From contig JANSYN010000002.1 in the NCBI GenBank assembly GCA_024742415.1, positions 248,001 to 312,000 on the forward strand: a stretch of DNA of 64,000 nucleotides, given 5' to 3'. Under the pieces are notes generated by a model. It saw only the letters and a program-made list of their open reading frames with translations. It searched no databases and was not told the origin of the DNA. The stretch comes from Gammaproteobacteria bacterium. Lineage in GTDB: Bacteria; Pseudomonadota; Gammaproteobacteria; Pseudomonadales; Halieaceae. This document shows, piece by piece, positions 24,160-36,469 of this stretch (within the stretch, counting starts at the first letter, position 1; the number at the start of each line of letters is the position of its first letter). The position numbers were made by a program, and so were the translations under genes.

Positions 24160-26610
24160 CTATTGGTCCGCGCCAAAAACGGGTACGTTGATCCAGCGAT
24201 TGGTCGCCATTAACGCCGGCCCATCCCGCACGGTCACCTGTGAGGGTGCGGCCGCGATGTAGGCATCCCAGGGCGTTTGCAGGGCGGCGACGGTCACTGC
24301 GCTTGCGCCCACGCGCAGCACGGGGTCACTCAGGGTTTTGCCGTCATAGAACATCAGGTCGCAAATCCCGTTCAGCGCGCATAGCTGATCCCCCGCCTCT
24401 ATCCATTGAGCACCGGCAAGCACCGCTTCTGCCATGCGCAGGTCTGTGGTCATGTCGATGCGCAACAACGGCGTGCGAATCCGCGTATGAATCTGCCCGT
24501 TGGTCGCTTCGTGCGCGATTGCCGCATTCAGGCCCACCAGCGAGACAGGGTCAACGCAGGCTTCGCTGCCCAGTGCATCGAGCTGCACCGTTTGTGGATT
24601 ACCCTGTTCATTCAATAGGTAAATATTCCAATGAGCCTGCAGGGCACACGGGTCGCCGCTGCGCTGCGTGAGTGCCAGGGTGAGGTAATACGCCGGCTGC
24701 TCGCCCTCGTGCACCGCCAGCGCAATGGGCTGTTCCAACTGTTCTGCGGCGCCACTATTGATGCTATTCAGCAGGCCGGCCACATCCTGGATCTCGAAGT
24801 GGTAATAGGTGCCGGGTACATCTTCACCCTGAACGAAGGGCGTCAGCGCGGGGCGTTCGCCACGCATCGCCGCCTCGGCATTGCCGATCACCGTGCCCGG
24901 GTAAAACGCATTTTTGAAGTCCAGCAACTCCTGGCGATACTCAGCAGTCACATCCAGGTACGGCGCGGCAAGATTCCACCACGGCGAAATGACAATTTCC
25001 AACCGATTGCGATACACCAGCGTATGCACAGGTTCAGGGTGCACAAACGCCGCCCAGCGGCTGCGATCATCGATCTGGATGTCGTTGCCAGCTATGCGCA
25101 CGGCCGCCCTGTTGTGCACGCTACTGTTATACAGGCCGCGGTCGGCAACCGCGTTACCCCAGAAAATAAAATCATTGGCTACAACAAATTCACGACTGAA
25201 TCGCACCTGGTCTTCAGGGTCCTGCGGCCACTTCAATGACGAGGCGAAGTACAGCTCTTCAGTGGCTGTCTCCTCGTTCACCACGCCTACGTAACTGCTG
25301 ATGGACTGTGCATCGAGCAGGTGGCTGACGGGCTCGGGCTGCGTAAAGCCGTTAACAGAATCGGCAGAAAACGTCTCGGCGGCCGCCTGTATGACAAGAA
25401 AGCGCGGCACTGCCGTTTCCGGGTCATGCACAAACACCGACCACTCGGCACGCGCGCCCTCTACCAGGCCGCCGGATGACTGATACACGTTCAACACCAG
25501 AAAGTAGCGCGGCTCCTCACTGTCGAGAATGCGCAGCGGTGCCAGGGTAAAGCCGCGAGGAAGATGCTGGGCTGCAAAAGCGGCGCGCGCCTGCTCGCTC
25601 GCAAATTCAAAATTGATAAAGATCGAGTTGGGATTCTCGCCCACGTCAAAGTTCAACCATGGCGGATTCCCCGGATCATTCACCGCCTGGGCGTAGTCCA
25701 CCGCGTTCATCACCGGAAACAGCGACTTGGCCAGGGACAGCGCCTGCCCACGGTAATCCGGCCCCTCAATTGTGATGCCGAGCCGGTTGCCCTGCACATG
25801 CAACGGTGGTTGCGCCGTTTCTGGCAACAGCGCATTGAAACGCTCGGCAAAAGTTGCGGCCGTTGGTGAAAAGATCTCTACCTGCAGCGCCGCTGCGGTG
25901 TCAGTCAGCGTGCCTCGCACGGCAGTCGCTGCATTGAGGCTGGCCTGGCCGCTACCGGGCGCGGTCGTTGGCATGTAGAGCGCAGGCAGGCCATAGACAA
26001 AAAACAGCGGCGGCGCCGTACCCGGTTCCGGCAGATAGTCTGCCAGCAGGGATGCTTCCAGTCCGGCAGACGTACCCCGATAGACATCGATCACGGACTC
26101 CAGCGCTGGCCGTGCGGCAATCGCCCAGGTGCTACCGGCTAAATTGGCGATGGACAGACCATTGGCTGCAATGTTTTCAATGGCGATGTCACGATAGGGT
26201 GCAGCGGGAGTTGTCTCGATGCCGTGGTGTGTTGAGCCCATACCACGTGGGTCCAGATTCACCAGCAGCGCGTACTCATCGCCAGCCTGCGTAGTTTGCG
26301 CAAAGAGCCACTCGCTGGTATCGCCGCTGAGGTCGAGCCCGCTCGCGTAAAAGGCCAGCAGGTCAGCAGGAATATGTCGCCAGGCAGCAGCCGAGCGCGT
26401 GTCTGGCAAAAGCTGCTCCGGAAGCGTGGCCTCGCCGCCGGTGCGCACGTGCAGGAAACCACGGCTAGCGGCAGGCAGCAGCGTAACAAGCGCCACTGCC
26501 TGTGGCTCCACATCGGTTGATGTACTATCGCTGCAGGCGGCAAGAAACACCGCCATAAAGACCAACACGCACAGCCTGTGAGCCAGGCCGTTACCCTGCA
26601 AAATCGCCAT
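24160..26610 (-). CDS. Large lipoprotein of unknown function (about 816 aa)
   Basis: Lipobox LVFMAVFLAACSDS after the Met at 26610. No recognised domain. Confidence 0.75.
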   Translation of the reverse strand: MAILQGNGLAHRLCVLVFMAVFLAACSDSTSTDVEPQAVALVTLLPAASRGFLHVRTGGEATLPEQLLPDTRSAAAWRHIPADLLAFYASGLDLSGDTSEWLFAQTTQAGDEYALLVNLDPRGMGSTHHGIETTPAAPYRDIAIENIAANGLSIANLAGSTWAIAARPALESVIDVYRGTSAGLEASLLADYLPEPGTAPPLFFVYGLPALYMPTTAPGSGQASLNAATAVRGTLTDTAAALQVEIFSPTAATFAERFNALLPETAQPPLHVQGNRLGITIEGPDYRGQALSLAKSLFPVMNAVDYAQAVNDPGNPPWLNFDVGENPNSIFINFEFASEQARAAFAAQHLPRGFTLAPLRILDSEEPRYFLVLNVYQSSGGLVEGARAEWSVFVHDPETAVPRFLVIQAAAETFSADSVNGFTQPEPVSHLLDAQSISSYVGVVNEETATEELYFASSLKWPQDPEDQVRFSREFVVANDFIFWGNAVADRGLYNSSVHNRAAVRIAGNDIQIDDRSRWAAFVHPEPVHTLVYRNRLEIVISPWWNLAAPYLDVTAEYRQELLDFKNAFYPGTVIGNAEAAMRGERPALTPFVQGEDVPGTYYHFEIQDVAGLLNSINSGAAEQLEQPIALAVHEGEQPAYYLTLALTQRSGDPCALQAHWNIYLLNEQGNPQTVQLDALGSEACVDPVSLVGLNAAIAHEATNGQIHTRIRTPLLRIDMTTDLRMAEAVLAGAQWIEAGDQLCALNGICDLMFYDGKTLSDPVLRVGASAVTVAALQTPWDAYIAAAPSQVTVRDGPALMATNRWINVPVFGADQ

Positions 26611-27047
26611 CGTGGCCTCTGTGGTTACCGGTTCGAGAACGTCATCATAGCAAAGGTTCAGCGCTCTGCCGCGCTGGCAAGGCTGGTGCATTACCGGTAG
26701 TCACTGTCGCCGCGTGGCAGGTACGTATCGCCGTCAACCTGCCCGAGGGCCAGCCGACTTCCAGCGGCCGCCGGCTCGACAACCTGGCCAATGGCATCAC
26801 TGTACCTGGCGTCTACCTACTGCCTGCTCCACCTCCAGGGCCTGATCAGGAAACTGCGCGCCTGACCGCCAGGGCAAAAAGCTGCATGCACTGCCATGGA
26901 CTGGCGCAGGATACCGGCCCTGGCCAGATTGGACGCACAACGCAGGCACAAATGGGCCACGGAATCCACTATTGTCTAGTGCCCAACAGCCTGCTAAGTT
27001 GCAAACATCGCTGCAGGCTTCTTCTGCAACCAGGAGTCCACTAACAC

Positions 27048-27833
27048 ATGACCTACTGCCTCGCCATTGCCACCAACAATGGGCTTGTATTCTGTTCAGA
27101 CTCGCGCACCAATGCGGGCCCCGATGTACTGTCCACCTACAGCAAAATGCACATCTACGATCTGGATGACGAGCGCACTATCGTCTTGCTCAGCGCAGGC
27201 AGTCTGGCGACGACCCAGTCAGTGATCAGCCAGATTGACGCGGACCTGGAGGCAGAAGAGGGCCCGTCCCTACGCACCTGCAAGAAGCTCACTGACGTTG
27301 CCAAGTATGTCGGCACCGTCAGCCGGCAACAGCAGCAACTGGTGGATGATTCGACCGGCAACGCCGAAATCAACGTGTCGGCGTCGTTTATCATCGGCGG
27401 ACAAATCAAGGGTGACGCGCCCATGATTTACCTGGTGTATGCCGCCGGGAACTACATTTCGATATCCGATGAAACACCGTACCTGCAGATCGGTGAAAGC
27501 AAGTACGGCAAGCCGATTCTTGATCGTATCCTGGAGCCCGAGACAAGCCTGGAAGACGCCGCGCGCTGCGCGCTGGTCTCCATGGACTCTACGCTGCGCG
27601 CCAATGCCACGGTGGGGCCGCCGCTTGAGGTGCTGGTTTATGAGGCGGGCTCATTCAAGGCCAATCATCATGTCAAGCTCACCGCAGAGGACCCTTACCT
27701 GCGCACGCTGAACCGCGCCTGGAATGAGGCGATCAAACTGGCCTTCCGCGATTTACCGCCGTTTAGGTGGCAAGACAACTCGCAGCCCAACGTGACCTCA
27801 TTTACCAAACGCAAAGGGCCTAGGAGCGACTAG
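27048..27833 (+). CDS. Anbu-type proteasome homologue (proteasome-type peptidase, predicted Thr nucleophile)
   Basis: MTYCLAIATNNGLVFCSDSRTNAGPDVLSTYSKMHIYD matches the Anbu N-terminus with Thr2 exposed after Met removal; LGL/FIIGGQIKGDAPMIYLVYAAGN. Confidence 0.93.
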   Translation: MTYCLAIATNNGLVFCSDSRTNAGPDVLSTYSKMHIYDLDDERTIVLLSAGSLATTQSVISQIDADLEAEEGPSLRTCKKLTDVAKYVGTVSRQQQQLVDDSTGNAEINVSASFIIGGQIKGDAPMIYLVYAAGNYISISDETPYLQIGESKYGKPILDRILEPETSLEDAARCALVSMDSTLRANATVGPPLEVLVYEAGSFKANHHVKLTAEDPYLRTLNRAWNEAIKLAFRDLPPFRWQDNSQPNVTSFTKRKGPRSD

Positions 27834-28848
27834 CCACGTCACGGTCTATCGTGCCTTGCACGTAGGCGAGCTTTTCCTTCACTGCCTGACTCAGCACAAA
27901 CGGATAGGGCTCGCCACAGCCCAGGCTCTGGTTCATTTCGTTAATCCCTGCAATGAGCCCTGACCACTGCTCCAGCATGCCGGTGATATCCGTGGCCACC
28001 TCGGGAAACGGAAACAGACCGTAAGCCACTGCGGTTTCCATGGCATCACGGATGTGCAGCAAGTGGGCAAAGCACTCGGCCCAGTCTTCCATCGGATGAC
28101 TCGCCGCGTAGGCGCTGATATAGCGTTGGTTCCAATTGGCGGGCGCGCCATGTTTGTAATAGCTGTCTACCGCCGCGCCATAGTCTGCGCCCGGGTCTCC
28201 AAACTGTTGCGTGAAGCTCGCAATATCGGTGACCAGTTGTGGATAGAAGTAGTGTCCGGCCTCATGTCTGAAATGTCCCAGCAGGGTGCGGTAAGACTCC
28301 CCCATCAATTCCTGCTGCTCCATGCGTTCAACCGCTTCGGCTTCCAGCACGTTCACGGTGATCAAACCATCGTGATGGCCCGTGGTCACAAAGTGTAAGT
28401 CCACCTCGGGGTGACTGCGTTTGTCTTCGATAAAGTCAAAGCGCATCCCCCCGGAGAATCCGTTCTCAACCTTACCCACAAACAGCCCCAACCCCGCCAC
28501 ACCCGCTAACATGCGCCGCTTGGCTACCTCAAGGCGACGCCAGCGCAGTATGTTTTCCAACCGGCCTACATTGGGGATTGTCCTGTTCAGCCGGCAGCCG
28601 CTGCAGCGGGCTTGTGGGGGCAGGCCAACCGCGTCTTCTACCAGCCCGTTGCAAACGTGAAACTCCACACGGTTGGGACACAAGCGGTAAGCAATACCGG
28701 CCGCATCGCGGTACAGGCCGTCGTCTGACGGCGTGACGAAATACATACGCAGCAACAGCGGGTCAAAGCCCAACACGCGCCCACAGTTGAAGCACTGCAT
28801 GTGATGCGACATAACACGTTGTGAGCATTCGCAGTAGAACTGCTGCAT
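27820..28848 (-). CDS. Zinc-ribbon plus HExxH metallopeptidase (PF15887-like putative zinc-binding peptidase)
   Basis: N-terminal CECSQRV...CFNCG ribbon, CSGC, catalytic RHEAGHYFY, downstream HPMEDWAECFAHLLHI. Confidence 0.85.
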   Translation of the reverse strand: MQQFYCECSQRVMSHHMQCFNCGRVLGFDPLLLRMYFVTPSDDGLYRDAAGIAYRLCPNRVEFHVCNGLVEDAVGLPPQARCSGCRLNRTIPNVGRLENILRWRRLEVAKRRMLAGVAGLGLFVGKVENGFSGGMRFDFIEDKRSHPEVDLHFVTTGHHDGLITVNVLEAEAVERMEQQELMGESYRTLLGHFRHEAGHYFYPQLVTDIASFTQQFGDPGADYGAAVDSYYKHGAPANWNQRYISAYAASHPMEDWAECFAHLLHIRDAMETAVAYGLFPFPEVATDITGMLEQWSGLIAGINEMNQSLGCGEPYPFVLSQAVKEKLAYVQGTIDRDVASRS

Positions 28849-28850
28849 GG

Positions 28851-29792
28851 CTAGAACTCCTGGTGGAACCAGGTCTCGTCGATGGCCTTGTGCACGACCT
28901 GTACATCAGCCTGAAGGTCATCAAGAAACGCATGCAGTGATGCCGTCTCCGCAGTGGTTGCTGATATATCGATGCGATAGCGCCTCAACCGTCTGATCGT
29001 GCTGCGCACGGCCTTGAGCGCTTTTTCGTTTGCTGGCAGTAACTGCATGCTGGCCTCCAGCTCGAGCAGGCTGTGCACCAGGGCCCGCGGAAAGTGTCTG
29101 TCACGCAGCAGGAACTCAACCACGTTTCGGGGTGTAACACTGGATTGCACTCTCAGTCGATACATCTGGTAAGCACTAAGTGACTGTAACACGCTACTCC
29201 ATAGAACATTCTGGTAAGGCAGGGTTTCTTCTCCACCCTGCAAGAGCTTTTCCGTGCCCACGTCTATAAAACGCGAAGACATATCCACCCGCTCCAGCAT
29301 GCGGCCCACGCGCAGGAACTGGTAGGCCTCGTCATGGCTCATCGTACCGGACAACATGCCGGTAATTTGCTGGCAAGACTTGATTACGCTGTTGAGAACG
29401 GAATGTCGAGAGCTGCGCGGCAGACCCTTGGTGGAACGGCGCGCAACGCTCAGGTACAGACTGTTAACTTGCTCCCACGCTTCGCTGGGAAGCACCTCAC
29501 GTGTCGTTCGCATGTTCTCCCGTGCAAACGTCAGCGAACTGACCAGCGATGAGGGGTTCTCGCGATCGATGAACATATACCGCACGACGTTGTTCTCATT
29601 GACGCCGCCGGGCAGGGACTCAAACGCTTCGCGCGCGCTCAGCACGTCCAATAGCAAACCCCAGTCCGGCCTTGCCTCGCCGGGCAGGTCAAGGCTGGAC
29701 AGGTGCTGCACCAGCAGCAGGCGCGCCGTATCCTCCGCGCGCTCAAGATAACGTGCCAGCCAATAGGTTCTCTCTGCAACTCTCGATAGCAT
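28851..29792 (-). CDS. Alpha-E domain protein (COG2307 type)
   Basis: MLSRVAERTYWLARYLERAEDTARLLLVQHLSSLDLP, typical alpha-E N-terminus. TAATG overlap with the upstream gene. Confidence 0.92.
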   Translation of the reverse strand: MLSRVAERTYWLARYLERAEDTARLLLVQHLSSLDLPGEARPDWGLLLDVLSAREAFESLPGGVNENNVVRYMFIDRENPSSLVSSLTFARENMRTTREVLPSEAWEQVNSLYLSVARRSTKGLPRSSRHSVLNSVIKSCQQITGMLSGTMSHDEAYQFLRVGRMLERVDMSSRFIDVGTEKLLQGGEETLPYQNVLWSSVLQSLSAYQMYRLRVQSSVTPRNVVEFLLRDRHFPRALVHSLLELEASMQLLPANEKALKAVRSTIRRLRRYRIDISATTAETASLHAFLDDLQADVQVVHKAIDETWFHQEF

Positions 29793-31342
29793 TAGCGTTT
29801 ACCGCCCATGTCTACAATCCAGGTATCCTTGCTGCCACCGCCCTGGGATGAGTTCACCACCAAAGAGCCCTTGCGCAGCGCCACACGCGTCAGACCACCC
29901 GCTGTTACGTAGCTCTCCTTACCCTGAAGAACAAAAGGACGCAGGTCCAGATGCCGGGGCTCTATGGATCGTCCACATAGCGTGGCCGCTGTTGAAAGTG
30001 CCAACGTAGGCTGCGCAATATAGTTGCGCGGGTTTTTCTTGATCAGCGCCGCCATCTTTTCCCGCTCGGCCCTGGTGGACTTGGGGCCAATCAACATGCC
30101 ATAGCCACCAGACTCGGCGGCAGGCTTCACCACCAGTGATTTCAGATTGTCTAACACGTACTTCATCTGTTTCGGGTCATTGCACAGGTAAGAGGGCACG
30201 TTGGGCAGGATGGGGTCCTCGTCCAGGTAATACTTGATGATCTGGGGAACATAGGTGTAGATGACTTTGTCATCGGCAAGGCCCGAGCCCGGCGCGTTCG
30301 CCATACCCACCTTGCCATTTCGCCAGGCGCGAAACAGCCCGGGCGTGCCAAGCAGGGACGTCGGCACAAACACCTCAGGGTCCATGTAGTCATCATTGAT
30401 ACGGCGGTAAATAACATCCAGCCGCTCCAGCCCGCGGATCGTGCGCATGAACACGTTGTCGTCGCTGTCGACCACAAGATCGGACCCCTCTACCAACTCC
30501 GCACCCATGCGCTGGGCCAGGTACGCGTGCTCGAAGTACGCAGAGTTGTAGATACCCGGTGTTAACACGGCTATCTCGGGCTTCTTCACACGGCGTGGCG
30601 ACAATGAGGCCAGCATATCGAACAGCTTCGAGGGATAGTCGCCCACAGGCTCAATGGAATACTTGTCGAACAGTTGCGGCAGCACGCGTTTTGAAACCGC
30701 GCGATTCTCAAGCATGTAGGAGACGCCCGATGGCACGCGCAAATTGTCTTCCAGCACATAGAACCTGCCATCGCCATCGCGCACCAGGTCAGTGCCACAG
30801 ATATGCGCCCAAACGCCGTAGCGCGGTTTGGCTCCCATACATTGCTTGAAGTAGCTGGGCGAGCTGTCGATCAGCTCGCTGGGAACAATACCATCCTTGA
30901 TCACCTTACGCTTGTTATACAGGTCATTTATGAACATGTTCAGTGCCGTCAGGCGCTGTACCAGTCCCGCCTCAACACTCTTCCACTCATTGAGGGAAAT
31001 AATTCTCGGCAGCACGTCAAACGGCCAGGCGCGATCGATGTTCTCACCTTCGCTATAAACCGTAAAGCTGATGCCCATCTGCTGGATGGCAAGGTTTGCC
31101 GCCTGCTGCACAGACTGCAGCTTTCTCATGGAGTTCGCCTCTACATGCGACACGAGACTGCGTGCAACAGCCCGGGCGTTGCCTGGAGAACTGATCGTTT
31201 CATCGTAAAAATCGCCGGGGTCATACTGGCTCCAGTCAACGCCAGCTTTGCTGCGCTTGTAGGAGGCCGGTGCCTTGATACGGGCCTTTACCCCGGCTTT
31301 GGACCTGGATGTAGCTGTTGCTTCGACTTTCGGTTCCGTCAT
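29792..31342 (-). CDS. Circularly permuted type 2 ATP-grasp protein (COG2308 type)
   Basis: YDPGDFYDET, GVWAHICGTDLVRDGDGRFYVLEDNLRVPSGVSYMLENR, VVKPAAESGGYGMLIGP, SRSSQGGGSKDTW-like C-terminus. Confidence 0.93.
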   Translation of the reverse strand: MTEPKVEATATSRSKAGVKARIKAPASYKRSKAGVDWSQYDPGDFYDETISSPGNARAVARSLVSHVEANSMRKLQSVQQAANLAIQQMGISFTVYSEGENIDRAWPFDVLPRIISLNEWKSVEAGLVQRLTALNMFINDLYNKRKVIKDGIVPSELIDSSPSYFKQCMGAKPRYGVWAHICGTDLVRDGDGRFYVLEDNLRVPSGVSYMLENRAVSKRVLPQLFDKYSIEPVGDYPSKLFDMLASLSPRRVKKPEIAVLTPGIYNSAYFEHAYLAQRMGAELVEGSDLVVDSDDNVFMRTIRGLERLDVIYRRINDDYMDPEVFVPTSLLGTPGLFRAWRNGKVGMANAPGSGLADDKVIYTYVPQIIKYYLDEDPILPNVPSYLCNDPKQMKYVLDNLKSLVVKPAAESGGYGMLIGPKSTRAEREKMAALIKKNPRNYIAQPTLALSTAATLCGRSIEPRHLDLRPFVLQGKESYVTAGGLTRVALRKGSLVVNSSQGGGSKDTWIVDMGGKR

Positions 31343-31421
31343 GCGAATTCTACCGCCTCTGCGCCGTGATACTTACCATAACATGCCATTCAATACCTGC
31401 ACCTGCTGTGCAGCCACGCGT

Positions 31422-33176
31422 TCATACGTTGCTGATCCACACCGTCTGGTAAGGACGCAGCACCAACCGGGTTTCATGTGCTGCGAACTGCCTTTGCTCG
31501 ATCAGGTCATGCCACTGCTGCGCATCGATCAGGTTGATTTCTGACAGCAGTAACTCCTGCGGTGAATCGGTGATGTTGCTGATGCAAAAAATACTCTGCG
31601 ATCGATCAATACTCTGGCGCCAGAATCCAAACATGGGCGTACCGAACTGCAAAGTGAACTGCGTGGCATTGGGATGAAAGGCCGGCTGCGCTGCGCGTAG
31701 CTGCAACAGTGCCGTTAGCCTGGCGAACAAGCGGCCATGATGGCTGTGCGCATCATCGAGCTGCTGCGACAGGATGCCGAAATCCCACTGGTGCCGGTTG
31801 ATGGCACGAAAATGGCCGCTGTTTTCAACGCGGGCATAGTCGTTGCGGGTGCCCAGCAAACTGTGCAGGTAGACACCGGGAATACCTTCCAGGGCAAACA
31901 TAATAGCATGTGCGCAAATAAAGCGGTCCTCACCCCACTGGTCGGCACCCTGCAGCGTTCCCTGCAGAGCATCGTACAGCGATATGTTGATCTCATACGG
32001 CTTCTGCGCGCCGCCTTCCAAAGCGCGATACGACACATGACCGCCAAAGCGTTGCATGGTGCTGATCAAACGCTCCATCTCTTCATCTGATAACAACCCC
32101 TCGGCAGGTCGCAGGCCAATACCGTCATGTGAAGCAATAAAATTAAAGTAGGCCGTGCCATTGCGCGCGGGCGGCATACTCATCAACCACTGTTTGAGGT
32201 AGCTGCAATCGCCTGACACCAGCGTATGCAACAGGAGTGGCGGCAACGAAAAGTTGTAGACCCAATGCGCTTCATTGGCGTTGCCAAAGTAGGACAGGTT
32301 CTCGCGATTGGGTATGTTGGTTTCGGTAACCAGCACCGCATCTTCTCGGGCATGCTCCACCAGGGTGCGCAGCAGCCTGACGATCTCATGGGTTTGATCA
32401 AGGTTAAGGCAGGAGGTTCCCGGCACCTTCCACAGGAAGGCGACCGCGTCCAGGCGGAAGATACGCACACCTTCATCGAGATACTGACGCACAATAGAGA
32501 CAAACTGCCTGAGCACTTCCGGATTGCGAAAGTCGAGATCGACCTGGTCATGACTGAACGTGCACCAGACGTGGCGTTCGCCATCAATCGCTTCGACCGC
32601 GCGCAGCAGTTCGGACGTTCTGGGTCTGACCACGGCGCTATGGTCATCCCCGGGGTTGGCTGTCACGAAATACCCCCTGCCCGGCTCTTCATTTTTCAGG
32701 AAGTTCTCAAACCACAGGCTGCGACTCGAACAGTGATTGATGACCAGGTCAGCCATCAGGTCATAGCCCTGTGCCAGGGCGTTGATATCGCTCCAACTGC
32801 CCAGGGCCTCGTTCACGCTGGAGTAATCCAACACAGAAAATCCGTCATCGGAGCTCCACGGGTAAAACGGCAAGACGTGCACGGCGCTGACAACGCCCTG
32901 GGTATATTCATCGAGGAAGCGGCGCAGCGTCACCAGGGGTTTCTCATCCTCGGCCAGCAGGCTGTCGCCATAGGTAATCATTACCACATCGCGCTCATCC
33001 CAATGATTGCCGCCAGGAGCGTGCAACTCCTCGAACGGCGCAAGCCGCATCAACCTGACAAGCGCATGCGCGAGCTCGGCAGTGCTTTGCGCCACCGGAG
33101 TGTCCGCGTAGATAGCATCCAGATGCTGCGTCACGCGCTCGTAAAGAGTATTGGTTACCGGCTCAGCCTGTAGCAT
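31422..33176 (-). CDS. GH13_18 sugar phosphorylase (sucrose/glucosylglycerate phosphorylase-like)
   Basis: Catalytic [12 protein letters not shown] (Asp), LVTETNIPN (Glu), [13 protein letters not shown]. Operon context favours glucosylglycerate as substrate. Confidence 0.85.
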
Positions 33177-33181
33177 GACAA

Positions 33182-34408
33182 TCAGCCTTCACTAAACTCG
33201 CGGCAGTCCGCTTCTACCGCGTCCCGCAGTTGATCCAGGATATCCGGTATCGCGCTGATGACACGTGACCAGCTCGGGATGAACGGACGCTCCATAGGAC
33301 GATCAAGAAATGCCTCACCCGCCTTCATGATGTTTTCGGCAAACAGCTCCACTGCCTGTTCTTCTGCGTGAATGTCGAGCGACAGGCCATTCATGACCGC
33401 GTCATTGTGATAGGTCTCAACAAAATCCAGGGCAATGCGATAGTAGGTGGCCTTGAGCGAGCGAAAGGTTTCCGTGTTGAAGGTTATGCCGCGCGTGGCC
33501 AGCTTGCGAAACAGGGCCTTGGATATATCAATCGACATCTTGGACAGCCCGCCGCTGTCGTCGTCGGCAGACAGGCTCTGGTGTTTGTGGTCGTACACGT
33601 CTGCGATGTCAGCCTGGCACAACCTGTTCTTGGCATAGTTGCGGTACATCTCTGAGAGCACGCCGATTTCTAACCCCCAATCGCTGGGAATGAGAATGTC
33701 ATTGAGCACGTCGCGGCGGAAGGAAAACTCGCCCGCCAGCGGGTAGCGGAAGCTGTCCATGTATTCCAGGTACTCCATGTCTCCCAGGGTTTTTTTCAAT
33801 GCGCGCAGCAGCGGAGTCACCAACAGGCGGCTGACGCGTCCGTTGATTTTGGAATCGGCAACACGCGCATAATAGCCTTTGCAGAATTCGTAGTTGAATC
33901 GGGGGTGGGCCACCGGGTAGATCAGGCGCGCCAGGAGCGAGCGCTGATAGGTCACGATATCGCAATCATGCAGCGCGACTGACTCAGCGCGATTGGCGGC
34001 CAGCGTGTATCCCATGCAATACCACACGTTGCGGCCCTTTCCCAGTTCGCGCGGTGCCAGGCCCTGCGCCTGGAGTAACTGGTCAATCGCCTGCAGGCGC
34101 GGCCCGTCATTCCACAGCACGCGGTGGTGCTGGGGCAGCCGCCCGAAAAAATGCAGTGCCTTGCGAAACTCCTCCTGGTCGGCCCTGTCCAGCCCGATGA
34201 CGATCTCTGAAAGATACGGCACCTGTGTCAGTTCATCGATTATCCTGGGCAGGGCCTCTCCCTGTAGCTCGGAGTACAGCGAGGGCAAAATCAGCGCCAT
34301 GGGGCGGCGTGCAGAGAAAGTGACAAGCTCGGCTTCCAGTTCCGCCAGCGGGCGGTCCGCCAGGTTGTGCAGCGTCGTAATGATGCCGTTCTGATAAAAG
34401 TCACCCAT
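33182..34408 (-). CDS. gpgS: Glucosyl-3-phosphoglycerate synthase-like glycosyltransferase
   Basis: [24 protein letters not shown] (DxD), [30 protein letters not shown]. Confidence 0.85.
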
Positions 34409-34411
34409 TGC

Positions 34412-35263
34412 TCAAGACCCTTTTCTTGTAAACCCGTTGTTTTCCAACCATTGCAATACACCCTCGGCCCAACCCGCGGGGCCAAAACTTTCGCTATAAA
34501 ACGCAGGCTCTGCCCTGCTCAGAGACACAAACCCATGCACCGGCGAGCGCACCAGCAATGCGCTGCCAGCGGCTTCGAGCATCTGCCTGTCGTTCTCAGC
34601 ATCACCGACCGCAAGGTCATGGATAACCGCAGCGGGGTGGTTTTCCTGGTAGCGTTCGCGCAACCACAGCAATGCGCGACCCTTGCTGGCATCGGCGCAC
34701 ACACTCATAAAACGCCCACCGCGCTGCACGCTGGCTCCAGCCTGCTCAAGGCGCTGCACAAAGCGCTGTTTGGTCTCTTCATCTGCCAACCAACGCACCG
34801 GCTCACTGTAGTCTCGCGCGTTGGCCTGTGCAGCACGGTGCTCATCGAGCCCTGTCATCTGCATGATGCCGTCAACCCCTGCCCGGGAGAAATAGTCGAA
34901 ACTGCCGGGAAACTCAGGCTCAAGTTGTTGCAACAGTGCAACCCAGTGGCTGCGCGGCGGACAGGTTGAATACACCCAGTAGCCCTCGCGCTGCGTTGCT
35001 GCCGGAGGCATCGTGGCAAAGTAATTGACTGGAATATATACCGCAGCGCCATTTTCGCTGATGAACGGATGGGTATTGGCGAGTTCTTCGCGCAAGGCCA
35101 TGATCTCGGCGCGCGTCTTGCTCGATACCAAAATCAGCGGAATATTGGCTGCCTGCAGAGCTTCGATTGCGGGCAGCGCCGCATCGAAGCGGTAGCTGTG
35201 GTGGTCCAGCAGGGAGCCATCAAGGTCACTGAAAACCAGTGCGGCGCGCTGCACGGTGCTCAT
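34412..35263 (-). CDS. HAD phosphatase, mannosyl/glucosyl-3-phosphoglycerate phosphatase-like
   Basis: FSDLDGSLLDHHSY (motif I), LVSSKTRAEIMALRE, SENGAAVYIP, AVGDAENDRQML. Confidence 0.85.
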   Translation of the reverse strand: MSTVQRAALVFSDLDGSLLDHHSYRFDAALPAIEALQAANIPLILVSSKTRAEIMALREELANTHPFISENGAAVYIPVNYFATMPPAATQREGYWVYSTCPPRSHWVALLQQLEPEFPGSFDYFSRAGVDGIMQMTGLDEHRAAQANARDYSEPVRWLADEETKQRFVQRLEQAGASVQRGGRFMSVCADASKGRALLWLRERYQENHPAAVIHDLAVGDAENDRQMLEAAGSALLVRSPVHGFVSLSRAEPAFYSESFGPAGWAEGVLQWLENNGFTRKGS

Positions 35264-36192
35264 GCCTGCACCCCACTGCACGGTTGCAGGTACTGGACAA
35301 TATGCCGCTCCTGGTCAAGTTTGAACAGGTGATCGACCACACCTGGCAGGCGTTGCAGGCAGTCCCGGGTAATGCGCTCGTAATGCTGGATGAAGCGCCG
35401 CAGCGCCGCGTCGTCCATGATGCTGTTTGGACCGGATGCCGTCACGCTGCTGGCAAGCTTGCGCTCTTGTTCCCGGCGCCAGCGGAACACACAGTCGAAC
35501 GAGGGCGCCGCAAGCATTATCCACTGGTCTACCAGTGCATACAGCGGCGGGAACTGCCGCTCCAGCACGCCGTTGCAGTAATTGCGCCAGAGTCCATGCG
35601 GATCGAACTGACGCTCAAGGCTGTTGATCGCCGGCTGCAGCGCCGCTGGTGTTTGCGGCGCCGCGCCCAGGCACCAGCCCTCCAGAATGACCACGTCCAC
35701 AGGGGTGTCCGCGCCTATGGAGTCAGCCTGCGGGTGGCGATCGTCCTTTGCCTTGTCAAAGCGCGGGATGGCCACCGGTGTGGTTCTGTTGACATCGAGC
35801 AACGCTGTTAGCGTGGCCTGCAGCAGCGGCATGTCATGCGTGCCCGGCACGCCACGTGTGCGCAACAGGGGGTGTACCGACTGCGCGAGGGCCTGGCGCT
35901 GTGTGGCGGTAAGATAGAAATCGTCAATCGACAGCGCAACCGCGCTGCGGCCGTGTTCCTGGCGCAGCAGGTTTGCCAGCAGATCTGACAATGTGGTCTT
36001 GCCTGAGCCCTGGCAACCGTTGAGGCCCACCAGCACCGGGCGGCCCGCGTCAATCTGGTGCACGGCTAATGCCTGTGCGAGTGGCGCGAACCATTTGAGT
36101 GCACCCGGCAGGTAATCCGGCGCCAGCTGGTGCCTGGCCAGCAAGGCTTGCTGCCACTTGGGCATCGCCCCTTGACTTGATTCTGGCCCCAT
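35260..36192 (-). CDS. D-glycerate kinase-like P-loop kinase (plant/YggD-type)
   Basis: P-loop LVGLNGCQGSGKTTLSDLL, LSIDDFYLT, DVVILEGWCLG. 4-bp ATGA overlap with the phosphatase gene. Confidence 0.82.
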   Translation of the reverse strand: MGPESSQGAMPKWQQALLARHQLAPDYLPGALKWFAPLAQALAVHQIDAGRPVLVGLNGCQGSGKTTLSDLLANLLRQEHGRSAVALSIDDFYLTATQRQALAQSVHPLLRTRGVPGTHDMPLLQATLTALLDVNRTTPVAIPRFDKAKDDRHPQADSIGADTPVDVVILEGWCLGAAPQTPAALQPAINSLERQFDPHGLWRNYCNGVLERQFPPLYALVDQWIMLAAPSFDCVFRWRREQERKLASSVTASGPNSIMDDAALRRFIQHYERITRDCLQRLPGVVDHLFKLDQERHIVQYLQPCSGVQA

Positions 36193-36469
36193 TCGCGGTT
36201 GCTTTCCTTAATCCTGCTGCACTGTGGACATGATCATGACACTATCGGCCAGATACGAAGCAGAAACCATGCCAACAAGCACCAATTTGGTGATCGGGCG
36301 CCCGGTGTGAGGTACGCCGCGCACCATTCACACCTGCGTCACTTGCCACTGCGTCGCGCATGGCCGCCAACGGCTGTGTCTCCCGCGCACGCCGCTGGCG
36401 TGTGTGGGACAATCACCGCGCATGGCCATTCCGGCAAACACTGCGGCGTTTTGCAATCCGCCGGCAGCG

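Follow-up and report, generated by a model that had tools for sequence, protein, structure and literature searches.

Levels of the salt protectant glucosylglycerate (GGA) rise with nitrogen starvation and with salt. Glucosylglycerate phosphorylase (GGaP) has been described in a gene context that includes GpgS and GpgP, and its specificity was first inferred from a neighborhood of GpgS, GpgP and a kinase (PMC7178133). Under nitrogen shortage GGA is able to substitute for glutamate as a counter-ion (PMC11009771). The Anbu operon comprises an ATP-grasp protein, an alpha-E protein, a transglutaminase-like protein and Anbu (PMC6376114, PMC5666114), and Anbu is reported to be highly expressed during nitrogen starvation (PMC6376114). 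In the NtrC/sigma54 nitrogen regulon, which includes glnA and glnK, the NtrC box has the consensus TGCACCAnnnTGGTGCA (PMC8743547).

Here we examine a locus in which genes of the first two kinds lie end to end. The window is a 64,000-nucleotide stretch of DNA from a gammaproteobacterium of the family Halieaceae, and an earlier note on it proposed that seven of its genes form a single unit linking GGA metabolism to an Anbu-associated peptide system. It is very probable, in our judgment, that the run consists of two modules and is not one system.

Gene Content of the Run

The seven minus-strand open reading frames (ORFs), spanning 27820-36192, are all present at the coordinates given in the earlier note. 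The near-zero spacing that it described was also confirmed, with measured distances of -22 to +5 nt everywhere except at one 79-nt gap (31343-31421), which is the junction of module 1 and module 2. Families were assigned by Pfam, NCBIfam and PDB comparisons. The first gene of the GGA operon encodes a GLYK-type D-glycerate 3-kinase (35260-36192, minus strand), which matches PDB 6ckg (D-glycerate 3-kinase, 6.6e-23) and 7xpc. It is followed on the same strand by a glucosyl-/mannosyl-3-phosphoglycerate phosphatase of the HAD-IIB, GpgP/MpgP type (34412-35281), which passes the TIGR01486 cut-off (195 vs 164.75 bits), and by the glucosyl-3-phosphoglycerate synthase GpgS (33182-34408), which has PDB GpgS matches and a match to NF040724 (1.7e-108) that lies under the curated cut-off. 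The last gene of module 1 encodes a GH13_18 phosphorylase (31422-33176, minus strand). Its GH13_18-type similarity and its GpgS and GpgP neighbors indicate that it is most likely GGaP, which would make it specific for glucosylglycerate and not for sucrose.

Module 2 begins beyond the gap with a circularly permuted ATP-grasp protein (29792-31342, minus strand; PF14403 6e-162, PF04174; PDB 3n6x). The alpha-E gene (28851-29792, minus strand; PF04168 2.4e-83) comes next and is a single copy in the window genome. It is followed by a zinc-ribbon metallopeptidase, Peptidase_Mx, with a HEAGH motif (27820-28848, minus strand; PF15887 1.2e-78, PF10005). The proteasome-like Ntn hydrolase Anbu (27048-27833, plus strand; PDB Anbu 5loy 5.1e-74) is convergent with the Peptidase_Mx gene, and the 3' ends of the two overlap by 14 nt (27820-27833). 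A convergent Anbu/Peptidase_Mx pair with overlapping 3' ends recurs at L072, L078, L085, L088, L089 and other loci.

Module 1 Is the Known Glucosylglycerate Cycle

The glycerate kinase, GpgP, GpgS and GGaP genes make up the known GGA cycle. GpgS, the GpgP-type phosphatase and the GH13_18 phosphorylase are mutually adjacent, the arrangement by which a GGA cluster is recognized. Around the 80 nearest GGaP loci (GTDB contigs) the gene order is fixed; GpgS is present at 80/80 and GpgP at 79/80, and a kinase homolog occupies the equivalent position at 62/80. The gene after GGaP varies. A co-directional ORF lies at most 100 nt away in 16 of 115 loci, the genes being unrelated, and in a genome of the same genus (G015) the ORF downstream of GGaP is convergent.

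A Predicted Sigma54/NtrC-Type Promoter Precedes Module 1

A sequence scan located a sigma54 -24/-12 element, TGGCATGGTTTCTGCT (36259-36274, minus strand), ahead of the kinase gene, 82 nt before its start codon. Next to it is an NtrC-box-like dyad, TCACCAAATTGGTGC (36279-36293), which agrees with the consensus at 11/12 positions. For 153 deduplicated loci we scanned 450 nt of sequence ahead of the operon's first gene, with a sigma54 score of at least 14 as the threshold. Elements were found on the coding strand of 44/153 upstream regions vs 3/153 on the reverse strand. In the closest group (21 loci, the window counted) the figures are 19/21 and 0/21, and thus a GG-N10-GC element of the kind expected for the NtrC/sigma54 regulon is kept in relatives. 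Compared with the rest of those loci, the operon-upstream regions have sigma54 sites scoring at least 15.8 at about 70 times the density and NtrC dyads matching at least 11/12 positions at about 15 times, five of the dyads being perfect (12/12). Immediately before TGG, at a position outside the score, 39 of the 44 sigma54 sites have T or C, and their likewise unscored spacer is A/T-rich. Both are features of known sigma54 sites. The sequence flanking the sites is not conserved, and the conservation of the motif positions themselves is inflated by score selection. The element, in part of the lineages together with the dyad (36259-36293 in the window), is kept in Halieaceae, SAR92/Porticoccaceae and others.

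The dyads are patchier than the sigma54 elements. At least 11/12 positions match in 4/21 of the closest loci and in 19/153 overall, with variable placement, and the dyads are confined to part of the lineages. In the window and at locus L102 the dyad is placed upstream of the -24 element by exactly 19 nt, and a 9/12 dyad at L034 has the same placement. Elsewhere this distance varies, and in SAR92/Porticoccaceae the dyad is downstream of the sigma54 element. Most Alteromonas operons have neither site. Given this variable distance and the absence of both sites from most Alteromonas loci, NtrC is put forward as no more than the probable activator of the GGA operon.

As a control, the region upstream of GGaP has sigma54/NtrC sites near chance level. 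The same scan upstream of the ATP-grasp gene (32 loci) and of Anbu (25 loci) gave chance numbers. The idea in the earlier note that the two modules share a nitrogen-limitation response is thus supported for the GGA half by its conserved sigma54/NtrC-type promoter and is unsupported for the ATP-grasp/Anbu half, which shows no such enrichment. Nitrogen control of the GGA operon would be sensible, since GGA can replace glutamate as a counter-ion (PMC11009771). Among the open papers searched, none was found that connects GGA with NtrC or RpoN for Gammaproteobacteria; in PMC3870243 glucosylglycerate occurs only as a reference-list entry. The sigma54/NtrC-type promoter of the GGA operon is provisionally the new part of the findings.

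Module 2 Is an Anbu Operon Variant

The ATP-grasp, alpha-E and Peptidase_Mx genes, together with the convergent Anbu gene, represent the known Anbu operon in a variant form. An ATP-grasp and an alpha-E gene lie near Anbu, and the window Anbu has the Thr1, Asp17 and Lys32 expected of the family (Thr1, Asp17, Lys32/33). The transglutaminase-like protein is absent from the set, which we file as a variant because Peptidase_Mx sits in the transglutaminase slot. In other genomes the ATP-grasp/alpha-E pair is followed by a short transglutaminase-like protein, by a long transglutaminase-DUF2126 protein or by Peptidase_Mx, with Anbu mostly convergent, and the whole is kept as a stand-alone set. The layout with Peptidase_Mx and a convergent Anbu is common to other members of the window's family and to several further families. 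Many Gammaproteobacteria have Peptidase_Mx in the transglutaminase slot, which was seen in the window and at L070, L072, L078, L079, L080, L085, L088, L089 and L176-L184.

The earlier grouping of the ATP-grasp, alpha-E and peptidase genes with Anbu is supported by other genomes. Among the 16 class genomes with a full-length Peptidase_Mx, alpha-E is present in 16/16 vs 38/132 overall (p 1.4e-10), and the two genes lie within about 3.3 kb of each other in 11 of the 16. The HExxH motif is kept in 23/23 Peptidase_Mx sequences compared. The replacement of a transglutaminase-like protein by a zinc metallopeptidase hints that this slot of the Anbu operon serves peptide processing. The nearest ATP-grasp protein is that of the same-genus genome G015 (81%), and a search of viral contigs with the window ATP-grasp gave no match.

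The Two Modules Are Not Linked in Relatives

The earlier note regarded the joined modules as a candidate for an undescribed, functionally linked system. Module-2 genes (ATP-grasp, alpha-E, peptidase or Anbu) were found at 0/80 of the nearest GGaP loci, where flanks were inspected up to 10 kb and only as far as the contigs extend. An order-level sample of 57 genomes contains 25 with both GGaP and the ATP-grasp gene, the window genome included. GGaP is near the ATP-grasp gene in 0/24 of the others, a few of whose draft contigs end nearby. A class-wide scan of 57 further genomes, using 58 loci drawn from the GpgS neighborhoods of class matches and from the order of genome G184, gave two linkages, which are independent, lie in other gammaproteobacterial families and have layouts unlike each other and unlike the window. 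In G184 (L170, G184:C1:114000-133900) the ATP-grasp/alpha-E genes are divergent from gpgP at a distance of about 300 nt, Anbu is convergent, and the peptidase is lacking. In G274 (L205, G274:C1:4737000-4756500) the modules are about 4 kb apart with two genes between them, encoding a metallo-beta-lactamase-fold protein and a GGDEF/EAL protein. Chance would give about 0.2-0.4 linkages, and the two observed exceed this weakly (p about 0.02-0.06). Since the linkage is absent from the 80 loci and the 24 relatives, and the rare layouts elsewhere differ, the seven-gene unit is private to the window genome and is not a conserved system. The proposed functional link, taken as a conserved system, is not supported by this comparison.

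The genes that flank the run, CryDASH and an 843-aa ORF, were traced in relatives as an empty-site check and are not together there. This minus-strand ORF (24160-26691) has no Pfam match. Its near full-length homologs (41-45%) occur only in four same-genus genomes, with partial ones in five more relatives. A search of open papers found none treating glucosylglycerate and Anbu together, and none naming any two of the relevant COG numbers together.

At the level of whole genomes, co-occurrence is above background. Of 370 class genomes 48 have GpgS, 121 have alpha-E and 31 have the two together; alpha-E thus occurs in 31/48 genomes with GpgS vs 90/322 others (Fisher p 1.6e-6, uncorrected for phylogeny and genome size). 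Among relatives only, p is 0.005, likewise uncorrected for shared ancestry and genome size. In the home family, every genome that lacks both modules falls in the smaller part of the size range (at most 3.6 Mb), which would yield an equal pattern.

The Junction and Possible Read-Through

No terminator was found in the 79-nt gap, terminator-like sites being near chance level, and the gap folds no better than shuffled sequences. No recognizable promoter was seen in it either. A sigma70 scan is uninformative on this point because it returned 0 matches across the whole region vs 4.1 expected. The gap has no homology to the sequence upstream of the ATP-grasp gene in relatives and no convincing homology to that downstream of GGaP. 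As the gap is without a terminator, read-through and hence co-transcription of the modules is possible in the window genome. The earlier note had held that a strong promoter and terminator in the gap, together with missing co-localization in other genomes, would speak against its proposal; co-localization is indeed nearly absent, and the gap has neither a terminator nor a recognizable promoter.

One Response or Two Modules

We favor, with good confidence, the reading that two independent modules, each conserved in itself, were brought into contact by a rearrangement confined to the window genome. Module 1, by the inferred specificities of its enzymes, would make and recycle glucosylglycerate. 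Its promoter sites suggest that nitrogen shortage would switch it on through sigma54 and probably NtrC, and its induction would provide the cell with a nitrogen-free anionic osmolyte. Module 2 would be the known Anbu-type set for putative peptide synthesis or processing, in which a zinc peptidase takes the place of the transglutaminase-like protein, and it is independent elsewhere; read-through of the gap would make it a passenger of a nitrogen-controlled transcript in this genome. The GpgS/alpha-E co-occurrence, the G184 and G274 linkages, the patchy and variably placed NtrC dyads and the Alteromonas operons without sites count against this explanation.

It is unlikely that both modules form one nitrogen-limitation response whose contact was selected for co-regulation, with transcription from the sigma54/NtrC promoter of module 1 running on into module 2. 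The terminator-free gap, the conserved sites upstream of module 1, the genome-level co-occurrence with its two further linkages and the reported high expression of Anbu in nitrogen starvation (PMC6376114) are consistent with it, but the chance-level site numbers upstream of the ATP-grasp gene and Anbu, the missing linkage in the 24 relatives and 80 loci and the lack of a fixed layout argue against it. Quite unlikely, too, is that the Anbu-type module has been drawn here into an NtrC/sigma54-controlled GGA transcript, with the contacts in the window, G184 and G274 reflecting a shared role in nitrogen starvation. ATP-grasp enzymes activate carboxylates, and glycerate and glucosylglycerate are both carboxylates. 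The suggestion in the earlier note that the ATP-grasp protein attaches an amino acid or a peptide to one of them, so that the seven genes form one pathway, draws on this chemistry and on gene adjacency only and is highly improbable: no evidence of such aminoacylation was found, each module is widespread without the other, and the window protein is an ordinary COG2308-type ATP-grasp, 63-76% identical to unlinked homologs.

Because the seven genes do not hold together as one system, an attractive but weak clue to Anbu function falls away. The conserved sigma54/NtrC-type promoter in marine Gammaproteobacteria offers a direct and testable mechanism for the rise of GGA under nitrogen starvation.

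Comparison With Known Systems

Three described systems are close to this locus. Like the Anbu operon (PMC6376114, PMC5666114), module 2 has the ATP-grasp/alpha-E order and an Anbu with Thr1, Asp17 and Lys32; it differs in having the zinc-ribbon Peptidase_Mx in place of the transglutaminase-like protein and in that Anbu is convergent and not co-directional. Module 1 has the same four families in one directional cluster as the GGaP cluster of GGaP, GpgS, GpgP and glycerate kinase (PMC7178133), the sole difference being the sigma54/NtrC-type promoter sites of the window operon. Compared with the NtrC/sigma54 nitrogen regulon of glnA and glnK (PMC8743547, PMC4987338), the window element resembles TGGCACnnTTnTTGC and the dyad resembles TGCACCAnnnTGGTGCA. 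The dyad, which in the window and at L102 is upstream of the -24 element by 19 nt, is closer than usual enhancers, and the gene set under control here would be the GGA operon.
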